Positions 45,611 through 50,810 of a stretch of DNA of 52,473 nucleotides are shown here, piece after piece. Source of the stretch: an uncultured Lachnospiraceae bacterium. Lineage in GTDB: Bacteria; Bacillota; Clostridia; Lachnospirales; Lachnospiraceae. Below the pieces are notes generated by a model. The model saw only the letters and a list, made by a program, of their open reading frames with translations, searched no databases and was not told the DNA's origin. How positions within the stretch are numbered: the first letter of the stretch is position 1; each line of letters opens with the position of its first letter. The position numbers and the translations under genes were made by a program. The stretch covers positions 1 to 52,473 of the forward strand of contig CALWLA010000014.1 in the NCBI GenBank assembly GCA_944381405.1, written 5' to 3'.

Positions 45611-48064
45611 TTACTGAACCCATACGCCGTCTGCATTCACATAATATCCATCCGGCGTCATCCGGTCGGTATACAAAAGTCCCATCGTACCATCTGCCAT
45701 CGGATTCAGATAATACCAATAATTTCCAATTTGCTTCCAGCCCGTCTGCATTCCAGTATTGATATCTACATAGAACCAGCCGTTTCCATAGTTATAATCC
45801 TGTATCCACCCGGACGCAGCATAGCCGTTCTGATCAAAAGCAAACCAGGCTCCGTTTACCTGTTCCCAAAAATATTTTACGCGTGTGTTTCCGTTTCCAT
45901 CTACTTCTGCAGTTCCCTTTGGCCAGCTTCCATTTGCGTACTGCAGCCACCAACCGGTTGCATCCTGTACCCAGTGGGATAAACCGTCTCCAGAAGTATT
46001 TGCCGCACCGGTGATCACACCGCTCTTGCTTCCGACCCTGCCCTTTACCGCGTCAGTAGAATAGGTCTCAGCCGATACGCCTGAGGGGCCTGATAATCCA
46101 GAGCCTCCACCTGAACCGGAACCGCCGCCTGATGAGCTGCCGCCTCCGCCGGAGGAACTGCCACCGCCAGAGCTGGAACTTCCGCCGGACGAGCCGCCGC
46201 TACTGGACCCCGAGCTGCCTGATGAACTGCTGCCACCGGAGCTGGATCCTCCCGACGTGCTGCCGGAACTGGAACCACCGCCTGTTCCAGAGCCTTCGTC
46301 CGTGTCCGTTCCTCCGGATGAAGTCCCCTCGTCTGAAGGTGTTTGATCAGGAGCTTCTGTCGAATCATCACCCCCAGACGGTGTTTCCGGTTCCGTTGAA
46401 GGATTTTCCGGAATTTCTTCGGAAGGAGTTTCTGTTTCGTCTTCCGACGGCGTCTCCGGGGTTTCTTCTGATGGAGTTTCTGGCTCCTCTACCGGGGTCT
46501 CCGGTTCCTCCTCAGGCGGAATTCCAGGATCTTCCGGCGGGGTCTCCGGATCTTCTTCCGTCGGTGGTTCCTCTGCTTCCGGTTCTGTAAATGTCAATGT
46601 GAAGACTTCGCTCCAGTCGCCGAATTCCACGCAAACCCCTTGTTCTCCAGGCGTATTCGGATCAAATCCAAAACACATTTCATCGATAATAGGAAGCCTT
46701 ACCTCGCCGCAGACAGAGCATTCCGCAGCCAGTTCTAAATCCAGGTCAGAAATTTTACCTCCAACCTCCAGTTCTGTACCCTCGTCAGCTACAACGGAAA
46801 TGCTTTCGACACTTCCTCCGCATCCAGTGAAATTCTGGCACCAGTAGTTTCCATATCCTCTATCACTTTCAACATAACCGATTCCAATATGGTTAAACAA
46901 ACCTCTTAGAATATTGGCTTTATGCCCTTCGCTGTGCATCCAGGAGTCCATCACTGCTTCCGGCGTTCTCTGTCCGGCAGCAATATTTTCACCCCATACT
47001 TCCGTTCGATCCACCAGGCCGATTTCAGCTAAGGTTGTATCCCAGTCGGAACCATCCGGTCTCTCATGTGAAAATGCAAGCGGGAGTTCTCTGGCTCTGA
47101 TATCCGCCACCTTCTGTATATCTCTGTTGGTGGAAAGAGGTTCCAGACCCTGCTTTATCCGTTCCCGGTTGACGATCTTCAAAACCTCCCATTCAGCATC
47201 GTAATCGCCCTTTTCTCCAATTACTTCTATCTGAATCTCATAGGTTTCTCCGCTTTGAGATTCTACCGTGATGGATGCCGTTCCTTCACTTACCGCGATG
47301 ACCGTTCCGTCCGCTTCTACCTCCGCAACAGAAGTGTCATCAACGGAAAAGCTGCAGCCTTCCCCCTCTACCGGCAGTTTTCGTTCTGTTCCAGGCCACA
47401 TGTAGATGATGTCCTGCAGAATATCCGGTTCCGCCGTTTCCCCGCTCTGGCCCTCATCACTGCCGCTTTCTTCGGAATCTTCTGCCTCCTGGTCGTCAAT
47501 AGCCTCTAAAATCGCATCTATAAAGTCGTTCCTATTAAAACTTTCTCCGGTTCCCTTGAGCGCCTCTGCAAATAAAGCCTCGTTGGCATCTCCGAACACC
47601 AGTACAAAGGGCATCGTAAAGCTCGATGAAACGCTGGTATACCTCAGAACCGTACGATTGGCCGAATTGCTGTTTTCACAGAGGACATAGTCATCCTGAA
47701 CACCCAACGCACCGGCTGCTTCATAGATTTCCTCTGCTGTATTTTCGCGAAGATCCAGATAGAAAACTGTGCTGCCTGTTTCAGCCGCTGCATTCCTCAA
47801 ATTTTCCAAAACGAATTTTGTATTTCCGCAGGTTATGATATCTCCGAAAACCAGCACGTTTTTCCCGCTTCCGCTTTGTTCCTCCAAAGAGGTTTTTTCC
47901 GATGATCCTTCGGCATTGACTACATAAATATCCGACTCCTTCATCGCATTCCAGTCGTCCTTTGCTGCCGCAGCATATACTGCCGGAAGATCTCCGCTTA
48001 TAAACGGGACGCTTCCTATTGCCAGGAGCAAACCCATACAAACTTTTGCTTGAATTCTTTTCAT
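45611..48064 (-). CDS. secreted CAP-domain protein with wall-binding repeats
   Basis: 817 residues from ATG 48064, with GGAGG 8 bases upstream. In order: a signal peptide (1-33, cleavage near VYAAA); a thioredoxin-like domain (about 60-185: VLVFGDIITCGNTKFVLENL in part, VFYLDL, FVLVFGDANEALF) with one Cys in place of CxxC; a bacterial Ig-like Big_2 domain (about 220-285); a CAP/SCP-PR1 domain (about 300-410: VNRERIKQGLEPL, SHERPDG, ENIAAG, HSEGHKANIL) with its His/Glu cleft residues; an acidic Pro-rich repeat region (PETPSE units); a long Gly/Ser linker; and choline-binding-type repeats (GWWLQYANG, GWFYVDINTG, GNYWYYLNP). It is probably displayed on the wall, downstream of the split two-component system. 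Confidence 0.88.
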   Translation of the reverse strand: MKRIQAKVCMGLLLAIGSVPFISGDLPAVYAAAAKDDWNAMKESDIYVVNAEGSSEKTSLEEQSGSGKNVLVFGDIITCGNTKFVLENLRNAAAETGSTVFYLDLRENTAEEIYEAAGALGVQDDYVLCENSNSANRTVLRYTSVSSSFTMPFVLVFGDANEALFAEALKGTGESFNRNDFIDAILEAIDDQEAEDSEESGSDEGQSGETAEPDILQDIIYMWPGTERKLPVEGEGCSFSVDDTSVAEVEADGTVIAVSEGTASITVESQSGETYEIQIEVIGEKGDYDAEWEVLKIVNRERIKQGLEPLSTNRDIQKVADIRARELPLAFSHERPDGSDWDTTLAEIGLVDRTEVWGENIAAGQRTPEAVMDSWMHSEGHKANILRGLFNHIGIGYVESDRGYGNYWCQNFTGCGGSVESISVVADEGTELEVGGKISDLDLELAAECSVCGEVRLPIIDEMCFGFDPNTPGEQGVCVEFGDWSEVFTLTFTEPEAEEPPTEEDPETPPEDPGIPPEEEPETPVEEPETPSEETPETPSEDETETPSEEIPENPSTEPETPSGGDDSTEAPDQTPSDEGTSSGGTDTDEGSGTGGGSSSGSTSGGSSSGGSSSSGSSGSSSGGSSGGSSSSGGGSSSGGGGSSSGGGSGSGGGSGLSGPSGVSAETYSTDAVKGRVGSKSGVITGAANTSGDGLSHWVQDATGWWLQYANGSWPKGTAEVDGNGNTRVKYFWEQVNGAWFAFDQNGYAASGWIQDYNYGNGWFYVDINTGMQTGWKQIGNYWYYLNPMADGTMGLLYTDRMTPDGYYVNADGVWVQ

Positions 48065-48117
48065 TCCCATATCCTCCATTTTGATTCCGTAAAAACACTG
48101 CCCAAATCTTTTTGAAT

Positions 48118-48224
48118 GATAGATACGTTCACTATATCACATCCCTGGCCGCAATATTTCCACATAGCAAAAACAGGCGGTGTTTTGACAAAAACAACCT
48201 CCTGTTTTGTTGAAACTATCTATC
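48118..48224. repeat. 14-bp imperfect inverted repeat framing CAP promoter and TCS terminator
   Basis: GATAGATACGTTCA (48118-48131) and, on the other strand, GATAGATAGTTTCA (48224-48211), 12 of 14 identical. The left copy includes TACGTTCAC, which fits the degenerate LytTR half-site consensus, and it abuts a minus-strand extended -10, TGATATAGT (TATAGT at 48136-48131). Confidence 0.5.
48169..48209 (-). terminator. terminator of the two-component operon
   Basis: AAAACAGG-GG pairs with CC-CCTGTTTT across a TTTTGACAAAAA loop, with T-runs on both flanks. It separates the kinase genes from the CAP gene promoter. Confidence 0.8.
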
Positions 48225-48247: not shown

Positions 48248-49087
48248 CTACAGCACTTTCAACACAATTTCTGCCTGAAACCTGCCTTCCTCAAAACGGC
48301 TGCGCAGCCGGCCGTCGTATTTTTCCGCTATCTCCTTTATGATCTCCATTCCCAGTCCATGCCCCTGTCTGGGTCCTCTGAAAACATGTCCCGGCGTTGC
48401 CGGATTACGCATTAGGATCAAAAGATAACGCTTGTACCTGCTGATTTGCAGTTCTATGCTTCTTCTTTGCTCCGGCAGCTCCCCGCAAGCCTCTATGGCG
48501 TTGTCGAACAAGTTCGTCAGCAGGCTGCACAGGTCCTGATCCGTAAGCGCAAGCTTTTCGGGAAGCGCCGCCTGAATACTCACCGCGATTCCCTTTTCTT
48601 CGCACTGGCTTGATTTCAAGCGGAAAACCGCATTTGCCATCTCGTTCCCGCAATACCGGTGATCCCACGGATCTAACCCCTGATTCTCCTGTTTTCCATC
48701 GTCTCCCGGAAATGCTCCGCAAAGTCCAGAGGCTTTTCTTTCCTCCGCAAGGGCCTCCATAAGCTCGCTTCTCAAGCGCTGTGTATCTCTTTCCAAAAGG
48801 ACTTCTGACTGTTTTTGACTAAGCAGGATCTGGTGCAGGCTCTCGCTTTCCCGTATCCGGTCTTCCAGGATCTGACTGCGTCTTATGTAAAACAAAATCG
48901 CCGCCAGAAAAATGTCAAAAATCAAAATGAAGATCGTTATGGGAAACAAAATGCGCATATATAAGGTATTTCCGCCTGCCCTGATATGCGAAAAAACGGT
49001 ATAAACCAAAAGGAGTTCTGTCAGGAAGCCCCCTGCCAAAGCGATATCTCTTAACGGTGTCCTTACTTTTCTCTTATGACCTCTCAT
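48248..49087 (-). CDS. GHKL ATPase subunit of a split histidine kinase
   Basis: 279 residues from ATG 49087, 14 bases after the stop of the sensor gene; no strong SD, so reinitiation is possible. Two membrane segments (about 13-34 and 49-73) lead into a coiled coil (LEDRIRESESLHQILLSQ, QRLRSELMEALAEER). At the place where GHKL kinases have R-H-D with the phosphorylated His there is QRLRSEL, so no His. The ATPase domain is well preserved: N-box NLFDNAIEAC (192-201) and G-box GHGLGMEIIKEI (242-253). It probably supplies catalysis in trans to the His-bearing neighbour. Alternatives are a degenerate kinase or a phosphatase-like regulator. Confidence 0.75.
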   Translation of the reverse strand: MRGHKRKVRTPLRDIALAGGFLTELLLVYTVFSHIRAGGNTLYMRILFPITIFILIFDIFLAAILFYIRRSQILEDRIRESESLHQILLSQKQSEVLLERDTQRLRSELMEALAEERKASGLCGAFPGDDGKQENQGLDPWDHRYCGNEMANAVFRLKSSQCEEKGIAVSIQAALPEKLALTDQDLCSLLTNLFDNAIEACGELPEQRRSIELQISRYKRYLLILMRNPATPGHVFRGPRQGHGLGMEIIKEIAEKYDGRLRSRFEEGRFQAEIVLKVL

Positions 49088-49100
49088 ATTGTTTTTCTGT

Positions 49101-49970
49101 CTACAGCTTGTCCTCAAGCTGCCTTTCCAACTCCAGAAAAAGGGCTTCCGCCTTATTTCCTTCTCCTGCATCTGCCATCAAACGCGCTGACATGAGTTGA
49201 TTGCGAAAATCATGCCGGATTTTATGCAGCCTGCGGTAGGCATCTTCATTCTGTTTCAGAAGTTCGTATATCCGCCTGTTATTTTTCTCCAATTCCTGCA
49301 GCCGCTTTTCTCTCTGTTCATGACCGGCATCCCGTATCAGATCCACCAACAGATAAATCCCTGCGGCTTCGATCAGAATCTGAAGGGTTAAAGTGGAAAG
49401 AAACAGACCTTTGTGGGAAAACATGCTTGCCAGATAAAACCACAGGATCGAAAAAACTTCGATCCAGAGTAAGAGAACCGGAACGACTTGATCCTTCAGA
49501 AAAATACTTGTTTTCTTCCGCTTATAGACAAAGGTGTGATAAAGAAAAGCCAGAAAAACCTGTGTGGAATTGGAAAGGATAACCGGCAACAAAAAGCTTT
49601 TTTCAGTCCAATGAGGAATCTCCTGCCATCCTAAAACATGTATACAAAGGAAAAGCGAAAAAACATCCCCTAAAACCGACAGCAGGAGAATGACGATCAG
49701 CACCCTCAAAGCTCTGGGAAAGGGCGTGGCAAAAAGCTTCACCGACAGAAACAGCATGATGGAATATAAAAATACCGAATAAAAAATCTGAAAACCCGAG
49801 TCTTGAAAAAAGAACTTGAAGGGAAGCGACAAAGAAAGCAGAAGAATCACCCAGACCATTTCGCGAAAGCTCTTCCGGCGATTCAGAAAAAGGCATATCT
49901 CAAAGAGCAGTCCCAGGCTGTAGAGAACCCCCAGAAAAACGGCTCTGAAAAAATCATTTACAAACGACAT
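49101..49970 (-). CDS. membrane sensor with phosphoacceptor His but no ATPase
   Basis: 289 residues from ATG 49970; starts at 50000 overlap more of the regulator. Six or seven membrane segments over about 1-210 form an AgrC-like sensor. A coiled coil follows (EQREKRLQELEKNNRRIYEL), then the DHp/SPOB_a helix LHKIRHDFRNQL with the acceptor His253. The protein stops 36 residues after that His, exactly where GHKL kinases continue into the ATPase domain. The sequence past the stop does not encode one in any nearby frame, and the next gene has its own membrane segments, so a simple frameshift is unlikely. It overlaps the regulator gene by 17 bases. Confidence 0.78.
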   Translation of the reverse strand: MSFVNDFFRAVFLGVLYSLGLLFEICLFLNRRKSFREMVWVILLLSLSLPFKFFFQDSGFQIFYSVFLYSIMLFLSVKLFATPFPRALRVLIVILLLSVLGDVFSLFLCIHVLGWQEIPHWTEKSFLLPVILSNSTQVFLAFLYHTFVYKRKKTSIFLKDQVVPVLLLWIEVFSILWFYLASMFSHKGLFLSTLTLQILIEAAGIYLLVDLIRDAGHEQREKRLQELEKNNRRIYELLKQNEDAYRRLHKIRHDFRNQLMSARLMADAGEGNKAEALFLELERQLEDKL

Positions 49971-50697
49971 ACTCCAAAAACCGTTCCTTGACCCTTCCAT
50001 ATCGGAGCTTGCTCACCGGCAGCGCAGTCCCATCATCCAGAAGAAGCTGATGCGCTTTATTGATGCTGTCTGTCCGATCCATATTGACGAGAAAGCTTTT
50101 ATGACAACGGATAAACTGTGGGGGAAAGCTTCGTTCCAGCTCATCCAGCTTCCCATAAAGCTCATATTGGCCAGCCGCCGTACAAACAATCACCTTATGC
50201 CCTGTACTTTCCAGATATAAAATGGAGGAATAAGGAAGGATATGCCGTCCTTCTTTGTTTACCAAAACAAATCGTTTTTCATCCCCTTCTGTAAGCAGCC
50301 TCACTACTTTTTCAAAAACAGCCTCCAGAACCTTAAGTCGGATGGGCTTCACCAAAAAACCGGTCATGTTGGAAGGCGTCAAGAATGCCTGTTGGACATA
50401 CTGCTCCGTATATCCGGTCATATAAATGATTTGCGCTTCCGGAAGCATCTGCTGCAGTTCCTGGGCTGCTGAAATCCCTGCTCCTTCTCCGTTCCAGTCA
50501 ATATCCATAAGGACAACGTCAAAAGGATATAGCTTCACGTCATCGATCAGATCCTGTGGCGCTGCGTAGGCAAAAAACTGAAGCTTTTTCTTCATCTTCA
50601 GGCCAATCTCCTGCAAAGCCTCTGTCAAATACCCGGTCACTTCTTCTGCGTCATCGCAGATCGCTATGTTGATTTTATCGATTTTTCCTGTTCTCAT
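49954..50697 (-). CDS. LytTR-family response regulator
   Basis: 247 residues. The receiver domain (about 8-130) has acidic DD at 15-16, phosphoacceptor D65 (VVLMDIDW), T94 and K117 (FLVKPI). The LytTR DNA-binding domain (about 140-245) includes ILYLESTGHKVIV and FIRCHKSFLVNMDR. AgrA/ComE/VirR relatives bind pairs of 9-bp half-sites and often control exported peptides or surface proteins. First gene of the operon with the two kinase subunits. It diverges from the XRE gene and is expressed from TTGATT-17-TATAAT (50784-50756). Confidence 0.92.
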   Translation of the reverse strand: MRTGKIDKINIAICDDAEEVTGYLTEALQEIGLKMKKKLQFFAYAAPQDLIDDVKLYPFDVVLMDIDWNGEGAGISAAQELQQMLPEAQIIYMTGYTEQYVQQAFLTPSNMTGFLVKPIRLKVLEAVFEKVVRLLTEGDEKRFVLVNKEGRHILPYSSILYLESTGHKVIVCTAAGQYELYGKLDELERSFPPQFIRCHKSFLVNMDRTDSINKAHQLLLDDGTALPVSKLRYGRVKERFLEYVVCK

Positions 50698-50739
50698 ACC
50701 TTATGCTCGCGTTGCTGTGCTATTACATCGCCGCTATAT

Positions 50740-50810
50740 TTCGCCATTACGAAACATTATATATTTAATTCACTGTAAAATCAATTTGTAATTCCTTATT
50801 GCGAAACATT
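50740..50810. promoter_or_regulatory. divergent control region with two 19-bp boxes
   Basis: Plus-strand boxes at 50740-50758 and 50792-50810 share TTCnnnATTnCGAAACATT (15 of 19 identical) and start 52 bases apart, close to five helical turns. Between and overlapping them is the minus-strand promoter TTGATT (50784-50779), 17 bases, TATAAT (50761-50756). The left box lies over the response-regulator start site and the right box just ahead of the XRE start codon. The same pair persists at 44463-44481 and 44516-44531. Confidence 0.65.

Follow-up and report, generated by a model that had tools for sequence, protein, structure and literature searches.

A sensor histidine kinase that seems to be made as two neighbouring membrane proteins in a gut-type bacterium

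The regulator and the two kinase-like chains

The window (the whole stretch of DNA that was analysed, 52,473 nucleotides from an uncultured Lachnospiraceae bacterium) has, according to its ORF list and translations, genes for a LytTR response regulator and two kinase-like membrane proteins, HK1 and HK2, in this order and all on the minus strand (Table 1). The ORF of HK1 overlaps that of the regulator. Between the HK1 stop codon and the ATG of HK2, for which an alternative upstream ATG lies at 49171, there are 13 bases. By eye, Asp65 of the regulator is at the usual acceptor position.

Table 1. Features of the regulator and kinase genes in the window
Feature	Position	Strand	Details
Imperfect 17-bp inverted repeat between HK2 and next gene	48170..48208	.	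82 % complementary
HK2, 279 aa	48248..49087	-	GHKL ATPase (CA) domain behind two membrane segments and a long helix, whose H-box is degenerate
GHKL ATPase domain of HK2	48260..48544	-	HATPase_c_5, PF14501, E 7e-16; NLFDNAIEA and GHGLG motifs
Ser107 of HK2	48767..48769	-	MAFFT-aligned to acceptor His position
HK1, 299 aa from first ATG	49101..50000	-	Six membrane segments and DHp helix pair with His; without ATPase domain
Phosphoacceptor His263 codon of HK1	49212..49214	-	His253 if counted from second ATG
LytTR response regulator, 247 aa	49954..50697	-	Pfam Response_reg and LytTR; receiver Asp65
Promoter-like site TTGATT-17-TATAAT, upstream of LytTR regulator	50756..50784	-	Consensus match only

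The inverted repeat is a possible operon end; it was missed by a consensus terminator scan. Consensus promoter-like sites are no commoner in the region than in shuffles, and no LytTR operator sites were identified. An imperfect 22-bp direct repeat (50737-50758 and 50789-50810), which ends in CGAAACATT and is possibly an operator, lies in the interval from the regulator to a divergent HTH-like ORF at 50799. The gene after HK2 (45611-48079, minus strand) encodes an 822-aa protein with a CAP domain, Big_2 and weak cell-wall-binding repeats. It is a possible target of the system, with the inverted repeat intervening.

In HK1, a hydrophobicity scan finds six hydrophobic segments, followed by a helix with RHDFRNQL, and the chain ends 36 residues past the His. 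No ATPase domain was found in it with Pfam or NCBIfam, its best NCBIfam match being AgrC, weak and far under the cut-off. The description given in the earlier note, made from the sequence alone, of a multi-pass sensor with an R-H-D-F-R-N helix, an end 36 residues beyond the His and no ATPase domain, is therefore confirmed; its His253 is the same residue as His263 here, the numbers differing because a different start codon was chosen (49970 is the next ATG). AlphaFold models of both chains were built from two-row alignments. That of HK1 is poor as a whole (pLDDT 57), with a helix hairpin in the C-terminal 69 residues (helices 197-277 and 281-298, pLDDT 76-89).

The hydrophobic segments of HK2 (14-32 and 39-57) are barely above the threshold used and lie inside predicted helices. 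No acceptor His is present in the H-box register of its alignment, and its six His residues are elsewhere (4, 34, 85, 143, 234 and 243). Ungapped pairing with HK1 by eye places Gln103 rather than Ser107 at the His position; neither is a His. The same earlier description of HK2, with two membrane segments and a GHKL ATPase and without an acceptor His, agrees with the hydrophobic segments, the PF14501 match and the H-box register. In the AlphaFold model (pLDDT 70) there is a single long helix (41-120). Where the second DHp helix would be expected, residues 119-147 are modelled with low confidence and no ordered helix is present, so that HK2 seems unable to form a DHp bundle alone. The GHKL fold of the model matches AgrC and many other kinase ATPase domains.

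By sequence, acceptor and ATPase domains are on separate proteins, as required of a split kinase. An AgrC-type kinase is expected to have a multi-pass membrane sensor and then an RHDxxN-type H-box, which are present in HK1, and a HATPase_c_5-type ATPase domain and an adjoining LytTR regulator, both of which are present at the window locus. It is also expected to have His and ATPase on one chain, which the window pair does not. The HPt (P1) and CheA-type domains expected of a CheA/HPt kinase had no Pfam match up to E 1 in P0001 and P0002.

A frameshift or sequencing error can be rejected. HK1 and HK2 are in different frames and HK2 opens with its own membrane helices, therefore joining the frames yields no ordinary kinase. 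In three broken ordinary kinases (L135, L116 and L139), the downstream piece has no membrane segment, unlike HK2. A sequencing error restoring a one-frame kinase had been named beforehand as grounds for refuting a split, and no frameshift does so.

Conservation and recurrence of the division

The LytTR regulator, HK1 and HK2 occur in the same order in G022, a genome of the same genus (contig CALWMV010000084.1, uncultured Lachnospiraceae bacterium BRZ_EQ__bin93). Its HK1 (317 aa) and HK2 (266 aa) are each about 31 % identical to those of the window over the aligned part. This contig was the only match in a contig search with a two-row profile, and P0001 alone gave no match. Within the genus, 6 of 25 genomes have an HK2 match of any kind and two, the window's genome and G022, have the pair; of the other loci, L003 and L004 are full kinases, L005 is a fragment and L006, the weakest match, was left unread. 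The earlier note would also have been refuted by relatives with a full-length first gene or by a pair that was not conserved. Neither is the case, as the nearest relative, G022, has the same truncated first gene and keeps the pair, and the same division recurs in other layouts. After the pair in G022 are CpaE/MinD-like, CpaF-like and TadB/TadC-like genes (L127, 6707-10624; names by eye), and because these Tad-type genes follow it, the pair may govern Tad pili there.

Of 397 Lachnospiraceae genomes sampled, the HK1 profile searches matched 53 and 273, and the HK2 profile 342. Most of these matches are full-length kinases, therefore loci with short HK1-profile frames were chosen for reading, namely those with a listed HK1-profile match in an ORF under about 345 aa, with 20 further or overlapping regions picked from the tables; many short HK2-profile frames (215-250 aa) are outside the loci read. 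Complementary His-only and His-less genes were observed side by side in at least 12 of the 397 genomes, two of them doubtful. At least two more complementary loci, outside the family (G475 and G676), came from 381 genomes sampled across the class, of which 185 had a match of some kind. These counts are lower bounds, since only five or six candidates were scored per genome, among the matches listed. The comparison genomes are mostly drafts.

The arrangement is a single pair in the window's genome (G000), a small set with two His-only genes in G246, G293, G273 and G135, and a single pair or small set in G206, G266 and the doubtful G173 and G318. There are four His-only proteins with one 443-aa ATPase protein, which has Arg in place of the His, in G269; an ATPase protein with two His-only proteins in G416; and a 148-aa His-only protein with two ATPase proteins, which have Gln in place of the His, in G264. 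In G318 (L128), the partner is apparently frameshifted near its end. In G173 (L111/L069), it has a flagellin N-terminus: a 430-aa ORF of G173:C24 has a PF00669 flagellin N-terminal domain (7e-42) and a His-less GHKL ATPase in one frame, adjoining a 165-aa His-only protein and a LytTR regulator. It cannot be told whether this ORF is a true fusion or an assembly chimera.

A LytTR gene adjoins the pair or fusion in all 14 loci scanned (the window, G022, the fusion described below and 11 others). L134 was left out of this count and G318 was outside the scan; the ORF in G676 held the LytTR part only. A regulator-like ORF is just upstream of the G269 locus, by eye. Some loci count against a two-subunit reading: there is no ATPase partner close by the His-only genes of L112 (G414) and L134 (G642), and one His-only gene, L040 (G361), adjoins a full kinase. 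In L134 (G642:C81), two His-only sensors lie beside a LytTR regulator made of two overlapping ORFs, with the receiver separate from LytTR, and no ATPase partner is present within the 9.5 kb read.

The two classes are complementary in their sequences. Among 19 aligned His-only proteins, which include L040 and L112, both without an adjoining His-less partner, the His is the only invariant column. The partner alignment (A6) has 12 of the 16 partners, with L069/L111, L128, L137 and L140 left out; in the His column these have S, L, A, R, Q, Q, Q, Q, S, N, N and Q, and they are invariant at K158, N192, L193, N196, A197, N228, G246 and G259 (HK2 numbering), mostly in the N- and G-boxes. Since the proteins were sorted partly by whether they have the His, His in 19 of 19 versus 0 of 12 is not an independent test. 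Pfam domain make-up played no part in the sorting and agrees with it: all 12 aligned partners have HATPase_c_5 and none of the 19 HK1 types does; SPOB_a (Spo0B-type DHp) is absent from the 12 partners and present in 10 of the 19 HK1 types, although not in the HK1 of the window. The His-only proteins end just after the DHp hairpin, 27-52 residues past the His in the 22 listed. H(D/E)xxN is kept in 16 of the 19 (by eye on the alignment).

The loci read contain 103 unique complete CA proteins, 82 with an aligned His and 21 without. That the His-less proteins are ordinary GHKL kinases with a divergent H-box was checked by profile and by eye and rejected; L003, L088 and L096, which looked His-less, do have the His and were counted with the His group. 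Setting aside two frameshifted-kinase pieces (L135 and L116) and three fragments (L005, L029 and L085) leaves 16 of the 21, every one of which has a His-only protein in its locus, versus 1 of the 82 with the His. This contrast is only descriptive, as the loci were partly fetched for that neighbourhood.

A kinase of two subunits and its alternatives

In G135:C3 (L107), a single 589-aa chain adjoining a LytTR regulator consists of a sensor, an RHDFNNQL helix, further membrane segments, a His-less helix and an ATPase domain. It thus has His and ATPase on one chain, as AgrC does. For each of the two pair profiles, HK1 (2e-11) and HK2 (1e-37), it is the best non-self match in the 397 genomes. In Pfam it has SPOB_a at 233-285, just below the cut-off (27.2 bits against 28.1), and HATPase_c_5 at 495-586, about 210 residues away. 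Because this natural fusion exists, HK1 and HK2 are read as one working unit.

It is highly probable that one sensor histidine kinase of the AgrC type is built from HK1 and HK2 as its two subunits and works as a heteromer; there are no biochemical, complex-model or expression data. HK1 would supply the main membrane sensor and the DHp hairpin with the acceptor His. HK2 would be anchored by its two membrane helices, with its long helix pairing with HK1, and a flexible linker would let its ATPase domain reach His263 of HK1 and phosphorylate it in trans. Phosphate would then pass from HK1 to Asp65 of the LytTR regulator. Free HK1 may be a phosphatase because the HDxxN motif is kept; the H(D/E)xxN motif is tied to phosphatase activity in HisKA kinases in the available part of one paper (PMC3591291). 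The heteromeric split kinase proposed in the earlier note is supported, both by the negative refutation tests and by the natural fusion, while complex formation, trans-phosphorylation, the direction of phosphate flow and the phosphatase role are inferred.

The window's LytTR gene is the only one found in its own genome, which is 99.4 % complete. The HK1 profile finds HK1 and two weak matches there (E 0.003 and 0.4; unread), and no other convincing AgrC-type sensor was found with it; thus no second AgrC-type kinase is seen for this regulator. There are eight GHKL matches in this genome, HK2 and seven others; by eye, L147 differs in type and the remaining six have a HisKA-like H-box. These data bear on the possibility that HK2 is a regulator, an ATP-sensing or RetS-like inhibitor of HK1, with the phosphate for HK1 coming from another kinase. 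Heteromers with an inhibitory partner are known, as in GacS/RetS (PMC12675982, PMC12189002; available in part). However, neither another convincing AgrC-type sensor nor, in the seven other GHKL proteins, another such kinase is seen, the HK2 ATP site is conserved, and HK1 and HK2 are naturally fused, and so this is very unlikely, although cross-phosphorylation by a HisKA-type kinase is still not excluded.

There is little to recommend the view that the kinase is decayed, with HK1 a truncated relic, HK2 a leftover and a regulator that works without phosphorylation. Broken kinases do exist in these genomes (L116, L135 and L139), but two species have kept the pair, about 31 % identical between them, with the ATP motifs on one chain and the His on the other, the His-only proteins end in the range given above, and the ATP site is kept in the 12 aligned partners. 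The least credible alternative gives HK2 a role elsewhere and makes HK1 a relay protein, a phosphotransferase or phosphatase like Spo0B. About half of the HK1-type proteins, as counted above, match the model of the Spo0B alpha-helical domain, but so does the fused kinase chain, so that a match marks the DHp fold and not a relay. Nor do the ORFs listed around the operon include a receiver-only gene that could be the donor.

Sensor kinases are usually treated as single-chain homodimers; AgrC works with the LytTR regulator AgrA, and FasA is a LytTR/ComE-type regulator. As in FasB/FasC/FasA, the window locus appears to combine a response regulator with two kinase-like membrane proteins, one providing the His and the other the ATPase. 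In the available part of the Fas study, S. pyogenes FasC(1-286), the membrane part and DHp, complements fully and is fully active; FasC H246 and the FasB ATPase are needed, and the FasB membrane part and FasC ATPase are dispensable (PMC12675982). Only heteromers were seen in two-hybrid assays of FasB and FasC, and phosphorylation of FasB at its own H284 was not ruled out by the authors (PMC12675982). As far as that source is available, FasB and FasC in their native form each contain six membrane segments, a DHp and an ATPase domain, and FasB keeps candidate His residues, unlike the window pair, in which HK1 has no ATPase domain and HK2 no His, and whose relatives include arrays of several His-only sensors. 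By analogy, FasB/FasC would be the strongest experimental support for the two-subunit kinase, the engineered Fas state resembling what is putatively the native state of HK1/HK2.

Phosphoacceptor and ATPase are also on separate proteins in CheA3/CheA4 of Rhodobacter sphaeroides, which were phosphorylated only when mixed (PMC3591291), as HK1 and HK2 are predicted to have them. From what is available of that paper, CheA3/CheA4 is a cytoplasmic CheA-type chemotaxis kinase, whereas HK1/HK2 is of the membrane-sensor AgrC type with DHp. Hik36/Hik43 (PilL-N/PilL-C) of Synechocystis is likewise a two-gene kinase with two-hybrid interaction but, according to the accessible text, of CheA/HPt type with genes far apart in the genome, unlike HK1/HK2 (PMC7656254). 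The best solved relative of both profiles, S. aureus AgrC (PDB 6e52, 4bxi), which HK1 matches over the DHp stretch only, has His and ATPase on a single chain, unlike HK1/HK2. T. denticola AtcS was considered as a comparison and was not relevant, judging from the portion available (PMC12070737).

Whether the split form had already been described was left undecided in the earlier note. The principle is known from CheA3/CheA4 and FasB/FasC. A literature search that had most subscription papers and all bioRxiv preprints outside its scope found no description of AgrC-type kinases that are split natively, or of arrays of His-only sensors. New is the native, recurrent split, expanded into sensor arrays; split kinases as such are known, on the available parts of the sources (PMC3591291, PMC7656254).

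Tandem sensors and neighbouring genes

In tandem His-only genes, the DHp is more alike than the sensors in 12 of 12 pairs. Pure constraint by a shared partner is rejected as the sole cause by dS (8 pairs): DHp dS is lower in four of five L037 pairs, in L038 and, near saturation, in L134, and the higher DHp identity is partly from gene conversion or similar homogenisation. L108 alone has similar dS with dN about five-fold lower, a likeness due to selection on the protein. Either homogenisation or selection keeps a common docking surface.

On the CA tree, 11 changes are needed with 16 rows, and 9 with the 14 that are left once two gappy rows are dropped. One clade is not rejected (AU p 0.176), therefore the number of split origins is not fixed by the tree. 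A broader proposal, which could as well prove wrong as right, is that AgrC-type kinases of Lachnospiraceae and their kin have split, perhaps repeatedly, into exchangeable subunits, such that one or more His-only sensors (as many as four in tandem), which feed one LytTR regulator, rely on a His-less membrane ATPase co-receptor. This would make a combinatorial receptor that sums signals and whose kinase and phosphatase states can be separated.

Truncated genes that are His-only or ATPase-only are easily taken for pseudogenes. A native two-subunit AgrC-type kinase would be a clean system in which sensing and phosphate acceptance are apart from catalysis, and the arrays suggest several sensors sharing one catalytic subunit. 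It would also allow the switch-like behaviour predicted for split bifunctional kinases, as given in the available part of the source (PMC3591291), to be tested in a membrane system that regulates genes.

FHA and PP2C phosphatase genes are near the fused kinase (L107, 4197-6654, G135:C3), and FHA and Ser/Thr kinase genes are near the G264 split locus (L131/L043, G264:C72), hinting at a link between two kinds of signalling.
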